IMG/VR virus record: IMGVR_UViG_3300018041_000058
Span: 1-24,800 of that record
Origin: a virus
Length of the DNA: 24,800 bases
Reading direction: 5' to 3' (one strand)
A program made the position numbers and the translations under genes. Under the pieces are notes generated by a model that made no database searches, was not told the origin of the DNA, and worked only from the letters and a program-made list of their open reading frames with translations. This document shows, in pieces, positions 1,493-12,056 of the stretch. The number at the start of each line of letters is the position of its first letter. Within the stretch, counting starts at the first letter, position 1.

Positions 1493-3265
1493 TTAATATC
1501 CAAATGTAGAATCAGATGGTTGATGGATATCTCTTTTTAATCCTCTCAGCCTATCGAATGTACTTACCATTCGTGGTCTACTCATTATCATATAACGCAG
1601 TGCATCATATGCATGGTCTGAAGCATGTGTATCTACATCTTCAGGATTATTTTTTGATAATGGTATAGACTGTAATTCTCTTATTAAGTTAGGACATGTA
1701 TTAAATATCTGTAACTTAGGTCTTCCATTTTCCTGTATCTTTAAAAACTCGTGTATTTGAATTTTACCTTGTATTCTATTTTTATCTGCAGGTCTAAGCT
1801 TGTGTCCTTGTCTAACCAAAGCTTCTCCTACAGTAGGACCAGTTGTTCCTGTTCTAGCCCACGCTGCTGTATCCAAAACACCTGAAACTGAATAAGGGTC
1901 TTCTAGTTCCATATCTGTTATTATACTGCCTAATTCTTCTCCTGTCAAGCCTTTTTTGTATAATTCTCTATAAATTATTAAAGTTCCGTCATTTTGGTCC
2001 ATTATTCCCCATAAACAACAACTTTCTGATGCATAACCATAGTCAATACCTTTTACTCTTTCCCAATGTAAAGGTAATTCAAAAGGAGTTATAACATGCT
2101 GCACTGGAGAAAATTCTACAAATGCTGCACCTTCTGCTACATCCCAGTTACCTTCAAGTAATTGTCTACGTTGAATCGGTGGTAAAGATTTAAGCATCTG
2201 CTCATAAACACCATCCTCTGCAAGGTAGGGGTTATCAGCTAACTTAGCCGGAATAAACTTTCGTGTTAATCCATCTTTACCTAAAAAACTTGTATTATGT
2301 TCAGCCGGTTGAATGTATCTTGTTTTTACCCAATGAGAACCAACACCACCAGGGTTAGCAGTGCATCGTAAGTAAGTTGTAATTGAGGGGTCAGTAGTAC
2401 GAAGTCGGGAAGCTAAATAGTTCCAACTAAACTCAGTAGGTAAATGAGTAATCTCATCAAATCCTATCCAAGAATAAGCTTGTCCTTGATAACGGTACAC
2501 GTCTGCATCTCGTTCAAGGAATCCAAACTCTACCTTCGCACCACTGGGAAAGTTCCAAAGTTTTTCTACTTCTCTAAACTTAGCACCGGGAAATGCTTGA
2601 GGGTATAGCTCACGAGATTTATCAATCATCTCTCTAAGTTCTGGCATAGACCTTCTAAGTATCAAAGCTCTATGTGCTTTCTTGTGACAGTATCTTAGTG
2701 GGTCTACAATCATGGCAAATGATTTACCACCACCAGCAGCACCACCATACAATACGTCTTTTTCTCCGGCAGCTAGAAAGTCTGTTTGTGGACCTTCGTT
2801 AGCGTGAAAAATAACTTTTGAATTTTTTAAAGTTTCTTGTATAGAAGAAGTAGTTGTTTCTAACTCATCTTCTGTAATAACTTTAGATGTTGTTTTTTCT
2901 GTAGCTTTTTTTAGAACTTCTTGTTCAGTTTTTAATCTAGTTTCTTTTTCTTTAAGTTTTTTCTTTGCTTGAGCAAGTTCTTTTTTCTTTTTATCTAAAG
3001 TTTTTTTACGTCTTGATTCTAAAGACGGACCTTTGTCAAGATAGTTTTTTAAAGAAACATGACTTAGTTTTCTATTTGTTTCTTGTTCAATTAAACTAGA
3101 AGCTTCCCGTAACGAACACTTCTGCTCTCGAATTAAATTAAGGTACTTATGTAAAACCTCTAGCTGTTGAGGTATGGGTTTAAAGTATCCTTCTATTTCA
3201 CTTAGTTCATAACCAAATGGAATTGTTTTACTTTTCTTTTTTAGATACTCCGGAGGTATTGTCAT
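1493..3265 (-). CDS. terL: terminase large subunit (packaging ATPase-nuclease)
   Basis: Motor that translocates phage DNA into the prohead and cuts it. The 590-residue protein has a Walker A loop GGAAGGGKS (174-182), Walker B WIGFDE (266-271) and a coupling motif CTANPGG (301-307). The nuclease domain has acidic residues at D408 (GIDYGYA), D465 (VLDTAAW) and D545/D550 (DTHASDHAYDALRY). The first 150 residues are an extra N-terminal part: a helix-turn-helix-like segment around 47-78 and a Lys/Glu coiled coil at about 85-130, which most large terminases lack. The start lies inside the preceding 39-aa gene (38-base overlap) behind a purine-rich AAGAAAAAGAA. Transcribed leftward with terS and the portal gene. 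Confidence 0.96.
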   Translation of the reverse strand: MTIPPEYLKKKSKTIPFGYELSEIEGYFKPIPQQLEVLHKYLNLIREQKCSLREASSLIEQETNRKLSHVSLKNYLDKGPSLESRRKKTLDKKKKELAQAKKKLKEKETRLKTEQEVLKKATEKTTSKVITEDELETTTSSIQETLKNSKVIFHANEGPQTDFLAAGEKDVLYGGAAGGGKSFAMIVDPLRYCHKKAHRALILRRSMPELREMIDKSRELYPQAFPGAKFREVEKLWNFPSGAKVEFGFLERDADVYRYQGQAYSWIGFDEITHLPTEFSWNYLASRLRTTDPSITTYLRCTANPGGVGSHWVKTRYIQPAEHNTSFLGKDGLTRKFIPAKLADNPYLAEDGVYEQMLKSLPPIQRRQLLEGNWDVAEGAAFVEFSPVQHVITPFELPLHWERVKGIDYGYASESCCLWGIMDQNDGTLIIYRELYKKGLTGEELGSIITDMELEDPYSVSGVLDTAAWARTGTTGPTVGEALVRQGHKLRPADKNRIQGKIQIHEFLKIQENGRPKLQIFNTCPNLIRELQSIPLSKNNPEDVDTHASDHAYDALRYMIMSRPRMVSTFDRLRGLKRDIHQPSDSTFGY

Positions 3266-5099: not shown

Positions 5100-5127
5100 A
5101 TTATACCTACTGATAAAAATTTGTCAA
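5100..5127 (-). promoter_or_regulatory. sigma70 promoter of the late/packaging operon (PterS)
   Basis: On the minus strand, TTGACA (5127-5122), a 16-base spacer and TATAAT (5105-5100) both match the consensus perfectly. The -10 box ends 6 bases before the terS ATG at 5093, so transcription should start at or within about one base of the start codon. It stands back to back with the promoter at 5165-5193. Confidence 0.88.
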
Positions 5128-5164
5128 GTTTTTTGTAAAAAAAAGGATATATTCTAAAAAGGTC

Positions 5165-5193
5165 TTGACAAAACAGTGATATACTTATATAAT
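5165..5193 (+). promoter_or_regulatory. sigma70 promoter facing the non-coding region
   Basis: TTGACA (5165-5170), 17-base spacer, TATAAT (5188-5193): a perfect consensus on the plus strand. The expected start is about 5200-5201. No convincing plus-strand open reading frame follows until 6921, so the product is likely an untranslated RNA (see 5201-5410). The divergent terS promoter lies 37 bases to the left. Confidence 0.88.
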
Positions 5194-6130: not shown

Positions 6131-6472
6131 TTAAATCCGTTTCGCCTTTGCCTTAGGTTTAGCAGTTGTTTTTGCTTTGCCTAATAGCGTTGATGGAATG
6201 CTTTTAGCTTTCAGCAATGTATCAAGCTTTGAGCTATCCATTATTTGAGTAGCTCTTTTCTTTTCGCTATCGTATGAAACCATCATTGCCCTTACTTGCC
6301 GTTGAAAATCAAAATACTTCTTTTTTCGTAAAGCTGTATCGCTTGGGGCGTTGCTTGTCTCATTCGCTAGATGATAGGCAACACTGTTAATTTTTCTATA
6401 AATTAAATTGGTTGCTTCTTTACTTAATAGCTTTTTAGTAAAAGCTTTTTTAGTTGTAGTTTTTTTAGTCAT
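6131..6472 (-). CDS. basic protein of unknown function (113 aa)
   Basis: Not recognised. The ends are Lys/Thr/Ala-rich (MTKKTTTKKAFTKKLLSKEA at the start, KTTAKPKAKAKRI at the end), around a helical core of about 60 residues with many charged and aromatic positions. Lys-rich tails around a small core suggest a nucleic-acid-binding protein, but no motif proves it. First gene of a two-gene leftward unit. Possible promoter elements upstream on the minus strand are weak (TTGCAA, 16 bases, TATTTT, around 6541-6568), and the RBS (GAAAG) is poor. Confidence 0.65.
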   Translation of the reverse strand: MTKKTTTKKAFTKKLLSKEATNLIYRKINSVAYHLANETSNAPSDTALRKKKYFDFQRQVRAMMVSYDSEKKRATQIMDSSKLDTLLKAKSIPSTLLGKAKTTAKPKAKAKRI

Positions 6473-6838
6473 ATTTTAAGTCTTTCAATTTATTAGATAT
6501 CAAGACAATTTAGAAAAGATTAATTTCTTTTCATTTCCCCAAAATACAGCAATCAAAAATTATTGCAAGTTATTTTTTTTTCTATGGGCTTTTTTGTTTT
6601 TGTTTTTACTTCTATTTAAAATTATTTAAACAATAATCGGTAAAGGTTAAACGTTTGGTTTAAGAATATTTAAACGAGTATGCAGTTTTTGGGTTAGGTT
6701 AGTTTAACCTGGGGTTTAAAACAGCGACACGAGAATGCAGTTTTGGTGGAGTGTTTAAGACAAGTTAGTTATACCCGGCCGTATAAACACTATGCCAATC
6801 CTCGCAAAGCCTTGTGGTTGTGGGCTTTTCGGGGTGGC
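6473..6838. promoter_or_regulatory. AT-rich control region with palindromes and a 55-base repeat
   Basis: No convincing gene. It holds ACGAG(T/A)ATGCAGTTTT twice (6674-6689 and 6729-6744, 15 of 16 identical, 55 bases apart), the inverted repeat AGGTTA-GTT-TAACCT (6696-6710), a palindrome AAACGTTT near 6650, and several GGTTTAA boxes. GTTTAAGACAAGTTA (6753-6767) recurs exactly at 7138-7152. These look like binding sites upstream of the early promoter at 6839. Confidence 0.5.
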
Positions 6839-6867
6839 TTGACAAAAATCTGGGAATATGCCATGCT
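6839..6867 (+). promoter_or_regulatory. early promoter A
   Basis: TTGACA (6839-6844), a 17-base spacer and CATGCT (6862-6867), with a TGC extension in front of the -10 box. The expected start is about 47 bases before the ATG at 6921. Shares the string GGCTTGACA...TATGCCA with the promoter at 7245. The perfect -35 box and extended -10 support it; the -10 hexamer itself is a poor match. Confidence 0.55.
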
Positions 6868-6920
6868 AGGAAAAGGTGGCAGAACACAGATGAGCCACAT
6901 AATTAAAATAGGAGACAACC

Positions 6921-7235
6921 ATGTTAATTATAACATATACATATAAAAACTTTAACGAACAAGGCTTTAGAGATACTGAGAGTATCGAGAAAGTTAATTC
7001 TAAAAACTATACTAAGTACTTAGACAAGGCTAAGAAGTATAACGAAGACTGCGAGAATGATATATTCATATCAGAAATTACTGATACTTCACAGTCCCCA
7101 AGACATACAACTTGCTTACCTTATACTTTACCTACGGGTTTAAGACAAGTTAATTTAAGGGCCAGGGACTTAAAACATAATCCAATAGGTAATAATCCAT
7201 GGGAATGTATTTATGCATTGCCAATGAGTGTTTAA
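6921..7235 (+). CDS. early protein of unknown function (104 aa)
   Basis: Not recognised. Begins MLIITYTYKNFNEQGFRDTE, with a Lys/Asn/Tyr-rich middle and a more basic C-terminal part (GLRQVNLRARDLKHNPIGNN). A strong RBS (AATAGGAGACAACC) precedes the ATG, and a near-consensus promoter lies about 80 bases upstream, so it is probably the first early product. The DNA for the C-terminal part repeats 15 bases found upstream at 6753-6767. A transcriptional or takeover role is a guess from position only. Confidence 0.75.
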   Translation: MLIITYTYKNFNEQGFRDTESIEKVNSKNYTKYLDKAKKYNEDCENDIFISEITDTSQSPRHTTCLPYTLPTGLRQVNLRARDLKHNPIGNNPWECIYALPMSV

Positions 7236-7244
7236 GATGGGGGC

Positions 7245-7274
7245 TTGACAGACCACCACGAACTATGCCACAAT
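7245..7274 (+). promoter_or_regulatory. early promoter B
   Basis: TTGACA (7245-7250), an 18-base spacer and CACAAT (7269-7274) with TGC just before the -10 box (extended -10). The context GGCTTGACA...TATGCCA matches promoter A at 6839. It lies 10 bases after the stop of the 104-aa gene and about 585 bases before the next clear gene. Confidence 0.55.
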
Positions 7275-7860
7275 GGATTTAGGCTAGGCTAGACAGACTA
7301 GCTAGTCTAATTAACTCTATATCTCTATACAGATACTAAACAATAATCTTTATTATTCTTTACTATATCTCTATAGAGTTTTATAGAGCTTTATAGAATT
7401 AATCAGATGTAAGTTGAAAGATTCCAACGAAAGACACAAGGGATTTTGTTTTCATATTTTATCCTTGTGAAACTACAAGTCGACATAAAACACTTTCTGG
7501 TTATATGGTTTGCTAGTTCCATACAGTTATGGGCTACATTCAAAAGGATGTCAAAGGCTACAATTCACTTTGATTTCGTTGAGATTGTTGAGAAAGGTAG
7601 TGATAACTAAAAACTAGCACTTAATTTAAACAGTCATAGCTTAGAAGAGATAAGCATTATAAGTCTTATAAATAAACTGCTATGTCAAGGGTTAATAGAG
7701 AAACACCAGTAAAAATAACTAAACGATAAAACTGCATGAAACTCTCCCGACTTAAAGATACGCTTAAGATATCTTTTTGAAATTCCCACTTGCTAGTTGA
7801 TGGGTACAAATTAACTAGCACCAATTTTTAACGCTAACTATACTATCAAGGAGGTATAAC
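7275..7860 (+). promoter_or_regulatory. long untranslated leader with repeats and hairpins
   Basis: Non-coding or weakly coding stretch between promoter B and the ATG at 7861. It holds the 14-bp palindrome AGACTAGCTAGTCT (7295-7308), a 13-bp direct repeat CTATATCTCTATA (7317-7329 and 7363-7375), and an inverted repeat AACTCTATA/TATAGAGTT (7313-7321/7372-7380). TGCTAGTT occurs at 7511-7518 and 7791-7798, and its complement AACTAGCA at 7612-7619 and 7813-7820. The hairpin AAAGATA/TATCTTT with a short T run lies at 7754-7778. An attenuator/operator region is the best reading. A possible short ORF interrupted by one TAA lies at 7446-7712. Confidence 0.5.
7754..7778 (+). terminator. weak terminator- or attenuator-like hairpin
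   Basis: AAAGATA (7754-7760) and TATCTTT (7770-7776) form a 7-bp stem with a 9-base loop, running into five T's. The stem is AT-rich, so termination would be inefficient; it lies in the leader of the gene at 7861. Confidence 0.4.
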
Positions 7861-8310
7861 ATGGCACAGATGAGAGTAAAAGACCAAGACTTAATTGTTC
7901 AAGAGGTCATAACAAAAATAGAAGATAAAAAACTTCAGGAGTTTAAAGCTCGGAAGGATGTTCAATCTTTACACAGTAAAATTCAAGTTAAGTTAAACGA
8001 TATCAAGGTACTTAAAAACCAACTTGACGAACTTGAAAAAACTATTAGAACTGACAAAGAAAAAGTTCGTGATTTAGTTATGAAGTTTCAAGAAAAAAAT
8101 AATCTTAGAACAGAACGCTATGGTGAAAACCAAGGGTTTAATATAGAATATAATTCTTATTCTACTAATGTTCCTACTTGTAAAATAGTTTGGCAATTAG
8201 ATTACACAACAAGACAAAAGCTAACCACTAAACTCAGACTTGAAACTATGGGTGGAGACTTCAATGCTTATGAACTCATTGAAGAGTTAGTCAATGAATT
8301 TTCTAATTAA
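7861..8310 (+). CDS. coiled-coil protein of unknown function (149 aa)
   Basis: Not recognised. Residues 15-85 are strongly charged and helical, with heptad-like Leu/Ile spacing (KIQVKLNDIKVLKNQLDELE then KTIRTDKEKVRDL), so a coiled coil is likely. The C-terminal 60 residues look like a small mixed fold with Trp and Tyr (CKIVWQLDYTTRQKLTTKLR). It has the strongest RBS in the region (AAGGAGG, 8 bases before ATG). It follows a leader of nearly 600 bases, which suggests controlled expression. It could be an early scaffold or host-interaction protein; not shown. Confidence 0.8.
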   Translation: MAQMRVKDQDLIVQEVITKIEDKKLQEFKARKDVQSLHSKIQVKLNDIKVLKNQLDELEKTIRTDKEKVRDLVMKFQEKNNLRTERYGENQGFNIEYNSYSTNVPTCKIVWQLDYTTRQKLTTKLRLETMGGDFNAYELIEELVNEFSN

Positions 8311-8330
8311 TTTAAAACCAGGAGATAAAA

Positions 8331-8729
8331 ATGTCGTATAAAATAAATGTAAAAACTAACGCTAAAAAGTTTAAAAGTGCCCCACGAAATCCTTTGGATA
8401 TTCCAACAGGCCCTTTAGACAAGCCCTTGACTACGGGTTATGAAGTTTTTGAGTGGTTAAAAAAGAATGCTTTTCTTACAACTAGATATAAATTTAGAGG
8501 TAGGGCAAGAGGTGTAGAGTGGTTTGATTCAAAGCCTTTGAATGAAGCAGAACGCATTGCACTTTACATTGATGAAAAACCCGACTATCATTCTAAGATG
8601 AAAGCAGAACATGAAAGGTTGTCAGACTTGCAAGATATTCAAGATAACATGTACAACCTTAGTCATTCAATTCGTTCTTATGAAAACATTCATGGGGATG
8701 AAGTTGTTATTAGCTTTAAGAAAAGTTAA
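8331..8729 (+). CDS. protein of unknown function (132 aa)
   Basis: Not recognised. The N-terminus is basic with prolines (MSYKINVKTNAKKFKSAPRN, then PLDIPTGPLDKPLTTGYEVF). The middle has a WLKKN/RFRGRARGVEWF-like basic aromatic patch, and the end is a helical stretch ending in VVISFKKS. The RBS is good (CCAGGAGATAAAA). It follows the coiled-coil gene after 20 bases and precedes the methyltransferase-like gene by 25 bases, so all three share an operon. Confidence 0.75.
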   Translation: MSYKINVKTNAKKFKSAPRNPLDIPTGPLDKPLTTGYEVFEWLKKNAFLTTRYKFRGRARGVEWFDSKPLNEAERIALYIDEKPDYHSKMKAEHERLSDLQDIQDNMYNLSHSIRSYENIHGDEVVISFKKS

Positions 8730-11368: not shown

Positions 11369-11562
11369 GTATAAAAGAAAAAGTAATAACAGTTAAAGTT
11401 CCTGAAAGAAATTTAACGTGGATTAAAAACAACTATCGTAAATCTAAACAAGGAGTAAACAGTTTGTTTGAATATGGTGGTATAGATATACGAGAGGTTC
11501 ATGCAATCGCAGATTTACTTTATCATCTTGATGAAGCATTTAATATTGAGGAGAACCTATGA
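11365..11562 (+). CDS. small protein of unknown function (65 aa)
   Basis: Not recognised. Starts MSIKEKVITVKVPERNLTWI; the second half (GGIDIREVHAIADLLYHLDE) is an amphipathic helix. Start and stop both overlap neighbouring genes in the ATGA arrangement, and an AAGG lies just upstream. The pattern of one strand pair then helix is typical of small phage regulators, but nothing more specific can be said. Confidence 0.65.
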   Translation: MSIKEKVITVKVPERNLTWIKNNYRKSKQGVNSLFEYGGIDIREVHAIADLLYHLDEAFNIEENL

Positions 11563-12056
11563 ACATATTTTATTTTGATGATTGTCCGGTTGAATCAGCA
11601 CGAGCACAACCTGATAAGATGTTAGTTAAAATGCCCCTGGAAACAGCACAGATGTTGTGTACTGCACACCGAGAGCTAGATGGTGATGAGTACGCTGACA
11701 AACATGGTCTTTACAAAAGAGCCTATTGGAATCATCCTTGTACTATTTGGGCAAGAGAATCTAGCTCAAACTATTCGTGGTTGTATCGTCACTTTGTGGC
11801 ATTGTGTATTGAATACAGCAGTAGATATGGAAGAAGTCATTTGAGTTTTGACAAACTCTCTGGCCCTCTTATGACACTACCTCAGAACATTGAGATAGGA
11901 GACATGACTACTGTTGCTCAAGCTATGCCTGACGAGTACAAACATGAAGACCCAACTGTTGCATATCGTAGATATGTGATTAACGAAAAACACTATGCCA
12001 AGTGGGAACAGAACAGAGCTAAACCTACATGGTGGACTACTAAGGAGGTAGCGTAA
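11559..12056 (+). CDS. conserved phage protein of unknown function (165 aa)
   Basis: Matches a family common in cyanophages and other marine phages with the N-terminal pattern MNIFYFDDCPVESARAQPDK followed by MLVKMPLETAQMLCTAHREL. In relatives the Lys/His there is nearly invariant (DKHVVKM). Other conserved parts are WNHPCTIWARESSSNYSWLY and IEYSSRYGRSHLS, with TTVAQAMPDEYK near the C-terminus. Some annotations link the family to DNA repair, but I cannot confirm that from sequence. Here the otherwise typical HCDKH is changed to QPDKM. RBS GAGGAGA, ATGA overlap with the previous gene. Confidence 0.7.
   Translation: MNIFYFDDCPVESARAQPDKMLVKMPLETAQMLCTAHRELDGDEYADKHGLYKRAYWNHPCTIWARESSSNYSWLYRHFVALCIEYSSRYGRSHLSFDKLSGPLMTLPQNIEIGDMTTVAQAMPDEYKHEDPTVAYRRYVINEKHYAKWEQNRAKPTWWTTKEVA

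Follow-up and report, generated by a model that had tools for sequence, protein, structure and literature searches.

A candidate modular leader RNA with H-type pseudoknots ahead of early genes in an HMO-2011-type marine phage

The stretch of DNA analysed here (the window) is a 24.8-kb IMG/VR record, IMGVR_UViG_3300018041_000058, and the element in question is the long non-coding leader that lies between the open reading frame (ORF) at 6921-7235 and gene 7861. The window belongs to an uncultivated HMO-2011-type marine phage, whose host we can only infer. Its terminase shares 66-67% identity with those of the Pelagibacter phages HTVC115P, HTVC103P and HTVC104P, and the window also encodes a GP88-like protein, a Toprim/DnaB helicase, both ribonucleotide reductase subunits and a DNA polymerase I-like protein recognised by inspection. 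Among marine viruses, HMO-2011-type phages are reported to be dominant and widespread (PMC9038755). The terminase genes of the window run leftward and the replication genes rightward, and the leader (7235-7861) contains no ORF of at least 60 amino acids (aa). A preliminary description of the sequence had noticed four copies of an 8-base motif in this leader and proposed a regulatory leader RNA or an operator array, of a kind thought rare in compact phages. For comparison, 28 loci (designated by L numbers below) were collected by a search with the gene 7861 product and their upstream regions were compared. The features of the region are as follows.

7245-7274, plus strand: TTGACA-18-CACAAT, a promoter-like site whose second hexamer is preceded by TG, in a block kept in L003, L004 and L024
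7281-7504, plus strand: module 1, a conserved non-coding block with a 14-bp palindrome and a CACAAGG/CCUUGUG helix (CAUAAGG/CCUUAUG in L024)
7505-7522, plus strand: 5' part of pseudoknot A, with stem 1 AUGG (7505-7508), the 5' arm of stem 2 (7511-7518) and the stem 1 partner CCAU (7519-7522)
7523-7611, plus strand: long loop with an inner helix, in place of the UUCAA of the relatives
7612-7619, plus strand: 3' arm of stem 2 of pseudoknot (or hairpin) A
7627-7822, plus strand: module 2, about 196 nt, with helices P1-P4 and P6 and the 3' pseudoknot B
7633-7686, plus strand: P1 (7633-7640 with 7679-7686, one mismatch) around hairpin P2 (7650-7654 with 7665-7669)
7689-7748, plus strand: P3 (7689-7691 and 7697-7700 with 7742-7748) and P4 (7704-7710 with 7731-7738)
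7754-7776, plus strand: P6 hairpin, whose sequence varies among the relatives
7785-7820, plus strand: H-type pseudoknot B, with stem 1 (7785-7788 with 7801-7804) and stem 2 (7791-7798 with 7813-7820, the motif of the preliminary description)
7823-7860, plus strand: A+U-rich spacer with the Shine-Dalgarno sequence AAGGAGG (7848-7854)
7861-8310, plus strand: gene for a 149-aa early protein without a family match

The four copies of the motif TGCTAGTT/AACTAGCA were found where they had been reported, at 7511 (+), 7612 (-), 7791 (+) and 7813 (-). All of them lie inside 310 nt and the 24.8 kb holds no further copy; as many as four were reached in 4 of 100 shuffles of the whole window. Within 7236-7860 it is the sole 8-mer (strands merged) present at least three times, and an 8-mer with four copies arose in 35 of 2000 dinucleotide shuffles of this region, or in 1 of 2000 when at least three G/C were demanded. 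These copies are two pairs of RNA stem arms. The pair at 7791/7813 does form the 8-bp stem predicted for it, which is also the attenuator-like hairpin reported earlier (7791-7820), and the 14-bp palindrome AGACTAGCTAGTCT (7295-7308) and the 13-bp direct repeat CTATATCTCTATA (7317/7363) are present as well. The fold of the whole leader gave z = -3.04 (20 shuffles). Judging from the promoter-like site, transcription would start near 7280.

The strongest evidence for a structured RNA comes from module 2. A pattern derived from its core matched 41 IMG/VR stretches, from which 35 distinct sequences were aligned, and 42 base pairs were named in P1, P2, P3, P4, P6 and both pseudoknot stems. Pairing was retained in 88.4% of the cells of this alignment. 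Changes on both sides of a pair occurred in 25 of the 42 pairs and in 132 cells, as compared to 15.1 pairs and 34.1 cells (sd 4.8) in shuffles, and neither value was reached in any of 500 shuffles, although such counts are not probabilities because the aligned sequences share history. When the partners were slid, just 16-46 cells were changed on both sides. The number of further pair types was unexceptional (47 against 42.5, with 47 of 500 shuffles as high). One pair of P3 (columns 120/185) illustrates the exchange, being GC in 20 sequences, AU in 10, CG in 3 and UA in 2. RNAalifold recovered P1, P3, P4 and stem 2 from the same alignment and added a pair (127/178) that swaps CG to GC, and the single-sequence fold of the window yields P1-P4. 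The window position of P2 was taken from this fold, as its 3' arm is misaligned in the alignment, and misalignment of the P6 types leaves that helix paired in just 49.7% of cells. Conserved internal loops are also seen, which bears on a possible riboswitch, a cis-acting element with a ligand-binding aptamer. Module 2 is not coding, because its lengths (189-220 nt) take every remainder modulo 3 and an open frame crosses the element in none of the 35 sequences. Strong compensatory change was thus obtained from the covariation analysis that the preliminary description had proposed as a check. Its regulatory leader RNA is strongly supported as to structure, with a covarying RNA at 7627-7822 and a motif that proves to be a pseudoknot stem; the word regulatory is carried here as a proposal.

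The covariance model built from the module 2 alignment was searched over 37 sources, of which 28 gave one strong full-length match each and three more rows were weak (E 0.5-0.7). It was positive in seven of eight long IMG/VR records, with two extra weak matches (E 0.06 and 0.57). The module 2 pattern was found in none of 84,980 bacterial and archaeal genomes, and L003 and L024 carry other modules in its place. In most relatives, module 2 has a promoter of its own on the 5' side and is followed by a different gene, encoding a 141-146-aa protein of unassigned family, and gene 7861 comes later. A sigma-70-like promoter scoring at least 9/12 lies within 75 nt upstream in 28 of the 35 copies, and an ORF begins 19-122 nt downstream in all 35, hence module 2 probably begins the transcript in the relatives.

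The 3' end of module 2 is assigned as an H-type pseudoknot because of its stem and loop geometry, that is, a short stem 1, then 1-5 nt, a stem 2 of 7-8 bp, 0-3 nt and a usually A-rich loop. In module 2 a 5'-CCCA, three nt ahead of the first-arm G, pairs with UGGG in the loop, and this stem 1 covaries too, other copies having ACCAUG/CAUGGU, AACCAC/GUGGUU or CUC/GAG. The same type of pseudoknot, with other stem 1 and loop sequences, is found in the relatives before the starts of several early genes, and stem 2 varies as G-N-TAGTT/AACTA-N-C with matched N. The stem 1 score was reached by 20 of 25 distinct gene-facing loops from all loci, a set which includes two antisense readings of the same hairpins, while with the upstream parts exchanged among elements (5000 swaps) 5.7 loops reached it on average and never more than 13, and the summed score was 108.4 against 55.7 +/- 9.1 when swapped. 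The loops below the score are those of L004 (5422), L011 (9198), L023, L044 and L059 (5912), and in a looser set of elements stem 1 was present in 20 of 28. Genome-wide, the plain TAGTT...AACTA hairpin was in many records not clearly more enriched than its reversed control; the argument is therefore based on the pseudoknot pairing and its position and not on hairpin counts. The knot ends 26-42 nt before the start codon for most direct neighbours and 40 nt before it in the window; in L010 the distance is 55 nt, with an extra hairpin in between. Directly behind the element, a stretch of 22 nt has a mean A+T content of 78% over the 35 copies (65% in the window), and UUAA occurs in most copies. 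In seven of the 14 gene-facing knots examined, there is no promoter-like site of at least 9/12 between the preceding gene and the knot, and these would therefore act, if at all, on polycistronic mRNA. At another place in L003 (6527-6554) a pseudoknot precedes the homologue of gene 8331, and the corresponding window segment (8310-8331) is without a knot and keeps only the spacer and the ribosome site.

Upstream of module 2, the comparison shows that the leader is a mosaic of RNA modules. The module 1 region, from 7236 to about 7522 with the promoter-like site first, is common to L003, L004 and L024 and partly to L010, L023 and L038. A compact form of pseudoknot A, with AUGG...CCAU in the H-type arrangement, is found in L003, L004, L024 and L038. 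The 89 nt at 7523-7611 are missing from all six of these module 1 relatives, and the same long-loop form as in the window occurs in L044, L045 and L049. The inner helix of this loop is made of AGUUAU/AUAACU and GCUAC/GUAG, and short open frames are also found inside it. When the window leader served as query, the knots, which occupy 17% of its length, had 40 of the 66 block ends no more than 6 nt away, or 13 of 33 when each position was counted once; the contigs are related and their ends not independent, and this enrichment is soft and suggestive of knots that would mark module boundaries. Gene content between knots varies as well, L044 being without gene 7861 here and L004 having an extra 61-aa gene. 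On the reverse strand of L044 (about 2766-3200), a hairpin after module 1 and a further stretch is followed directly by the gene 8331 homologue. A different non-coding stretch of L024 (5735-5940), with a TTGACA site and TGAGGAGGAG, replaces module 2 of the window. As to the proposed rarity of such leaders in compact phages, these relatives show that they are normal for this phage group.

On balance, and by a narrow preponderance in our judgement, the leader would be the 5' untranslated RNA of an early rightward operon, built from exchangeable modules, in which module 2 is a new RNA that ends in an H-type pseudoknot and acts in cis. Comparison of sequences shows the fold and the pseudoknot, and also that such knots recur ahead of several early genes and are associated with module boundaries. 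Action in cis within the mRNA would fit this arrangement, and an mRNA-level role is favoured because half of the knots examined lie between genes without a promoter-like site in the gap. The most likely mode of action would be the tuning of translation or stability of early genes. Placed immediately 5' of the ribosome footprint, with an A+U-rich spacer behind it, the pseudoknot could govern translation initiation, shield the mRNA, or both. The signal would probably be a protein or small molecule that recognises the conserved internal loops in P1-P4. Through the shared stem 2 sequence one factor might act on several early genes, and the same stem may also offer short homology where gene cassettes recombine. 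A bolder extension is possible, though we consider it doubtful: module 2 might belong to a new RNA class that senses a signal or binds a protein, and the knots might define a phage-wide post-transcriptional regulon, in which one host or phage factor reads the common stem 2, stem 1 and the loop tune each gene, and the circuit is rewired by swapping knot-bounded cassettes.

Several observations weigh against the proposal of a cis-acting leader. The loop of pseudoknot A in the window is about 85 nt longer than in the relatives, and the minimum free energies of the isolated module 2 elements are only mildly better than those of shuffles (mean z -1.43, n = 35). None of five cultured HMO-2011-type phages matched the module 2 model, so this RNA is not general to the phage group; an empty result by itself carries little weight, but the model had been positive in seven of the eight IMG/VR records. 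The knot does not obviously sequester the Shine-Dalgarno sequence, and the T-rich stretches after stem 2 leave termination possible.

This last point leads to transcription attenuation, an unlikely explanation and still the best of the alternatives, in which stem 2 would be a weak intrinsic terminator, stem 1 or the upstream RNA would decide its formation, and the early operon would be switched at elongation. At least five T within 8 nt, starting 0-2 nt after the stem, were found in 28 of 35 copies by this permissive rule, and the window hairpin scores terminator-like. An intrinsic terminator or attenuator likewise has a stem and then a T-rich stretch, but here the T run is displaced from the stem by several bases in the window, the stem is A-T-rich with three G-C pairs only, and the pseudoknot pairing is conserved. 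The terminator scan of the leader region gave three sites against 2.1 expected, so a terminator-like score alone is no evidence. Moreover, termination at the operon-internal knots, where the gap holds no promoter-like site, would shut off the gene that follows.

We give a somewhat lower probability to a trans-acting small RNA directed at host or phage; module 2 would then stand alone or be cut out of the leader, and the pseudoknot would protect its 3' end. Its core is strongly conserved, and the promoters close before P1 in most copies would produce an RNA that starts near the first helix and could end at the knot. However, an ORF follows within 122 nt in every copy, knots without module 2 precede genes too, and in the window and L038 no promoter of at least 9/12 stands directly before module 2, which lies there inside a longer leader.

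It is improbable, to about a one-in-ten degree of belief, that the motifs serve above all for recombination, as short shared stems where cassettes are swapped and the RNA fold is secondary, in the way proposed for the T4-like PeSLs. The concentration of block ends near knots and the genes that come and go between them (L044, L004) agree with it, but the enrichment is soft for the reason given above, and compensatory change in stem 1 and P1-P4 would be left unexplained. A DNA operator array bound by a repressor, the other proposal of the preliminary description, is very improbable. Four copies of one 8-mer near a promoter would suit it, yet they lie about 240-550 nt downstream of the promoter-like site, and the arms sit in stems that change jointly with their partners, N being matched. 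The DNA is not conserved irrespective of RNA pairing, since both stem 1 and stem 2 show compensatory changes, and stem 1 pairs with loops that differ from knot to knot, a pairing that DNA operators do not need. Leader peptide control by small ORFs (20 aa from ATG 7548 and 15 aa from 7682) or by a frame that stays open along the long loop can practically be dismissed. Such short frames are read from the sequence, but no good Shine-Dalgarno sequence was seen; in L024, L038 and other loci the frames are interrupted or missing, and none is open across module 2.

The cis-acting leader preferred here has its closest known counterpart in phage T4. The gene 32 mRNA leaders of T4, T2 and RB69 have an H-type pseudoknot ahead of the start codon and then an A+U-rich spacer with UUAA repeats; in T4 the knot nucleates binding of the protein that the gene encodes along this spacer, and gene 32 has been presented as perhaps the sole viral case of a pseudoknot in translational autoregulation (PMC3014915). 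The H-type pseudoknot upstream of a phage start is found here as well, on comparative evidence only, and the A+U-rich spacer, with UUAA in most copies, may correspond to an unstructured stretch over the ribosome site. In contrast to gene 32, the knots of the window type precede several genes, differ in stem 1 and loop, and can end a conserved RNA of about 200 nt, and any binder of theirs is hypothetical. Nor is the downstream gene that of a single-stranded-DNA-binding protein: the Gp2.5-like protein of the phage is encoded elsewhere (13029), and neither gene 7861 nor the 145-aa gene matched such a protein. By analogy the leader may be said to work like a gene 32-type operator rather than to be one.

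The promoter early stem-loop (PeSL) is an early promoter joined to a stem-loop terminator and repeated at sites of gene shuffling. In T4-like phages, PeSLs are repeated regulatory units by early genes with gene shuffling at them (PMC4503421), and the present elements resemble them in this. A promoter was seen in 28 of 35 copies, a T tract in 28 of 35 by the permissive rule, and block ends suggest shuffling at knots, but the stem would be a putative terminator at most. Unlike PeSLs, the unit is placed between the promoter and the ribosome site, has a pseudoknot in place of a plain terminator stem and occurs in HMO-2011-type phages. The Rfam elements manA, wcaG and other marine and cyanophage RNAs are likewise structured elements of marine metagenomes and phages (PMC2864571), whereas the window and its relatives match no Rfam family at the gathering score. 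Rfam 15 gave no match at the family threshold in the window or in 11 relatives, a permissive search gave none in window 6400-8400, and L013 and L024 had sub-threshold matches only (E 1.3-3.7). A wcaG match on L024 was rejected, as its 16.4 bits (threshold 42; E 1.6) are at chance level and it covers module 1, not module 2. Among the open-licence literature, no title or beginning of an abstract was found to describe this element, and in the HMO-2011 survey PMC9038755 the words promoter, noncoding or non-coding, hairpin, intergenic and riboswitch do not occur. Cis-acting leader RNAs are already known; what is new is the module 2 RNA and the interchangeable pseudoknots, and a conserved leader RNA with phage-swapped pseudoknots looks like an undescribed form of early-gene control. 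If true, it would give a handle on early-gene control in HMO-2011-type phages and would add to gene 32 a second case of phage pseudoknots ahead of start codons. With this leader one could also ask in concrete terms whether regulatory RNAs serve as cassette boundaries in phage evolution.

The gene 7861 product has an invariant N-terminus (MAQMRVKDQDL), which is partly due to the search patterns. Its predicted fold (pLDDT 89) consists of long helices and a small alpha/beta end and has no convincing structural relative, and no relatives of the gene were found in 50,697 phage records, in which window 6740-8320 had no DNA similarity either. The tRNA/tmRNA search of the window found none. Elsewhere in the window, two divergent perfect sigma-70 consensus promoters at 5100-5193, TTGACA-17-TATAAT (+, 5165) and TTGACA-16-TATAAT (-, 5127), separate the leftward terminase genes from the rightward side. 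At 6800-6870 a hairpin, CCTCG..AAAGCC/GGGCTTT..CGGGG, lies immediately 5' of a TTGACA promoter-like site; it precedes the 104-aa gene 6921 and is kept in L003, L004 and L024. The window also encodes, at 11559-12056, a 165-aa protein that matches pyrimidine dimer DNA glycosylase (Pfam PF03013).
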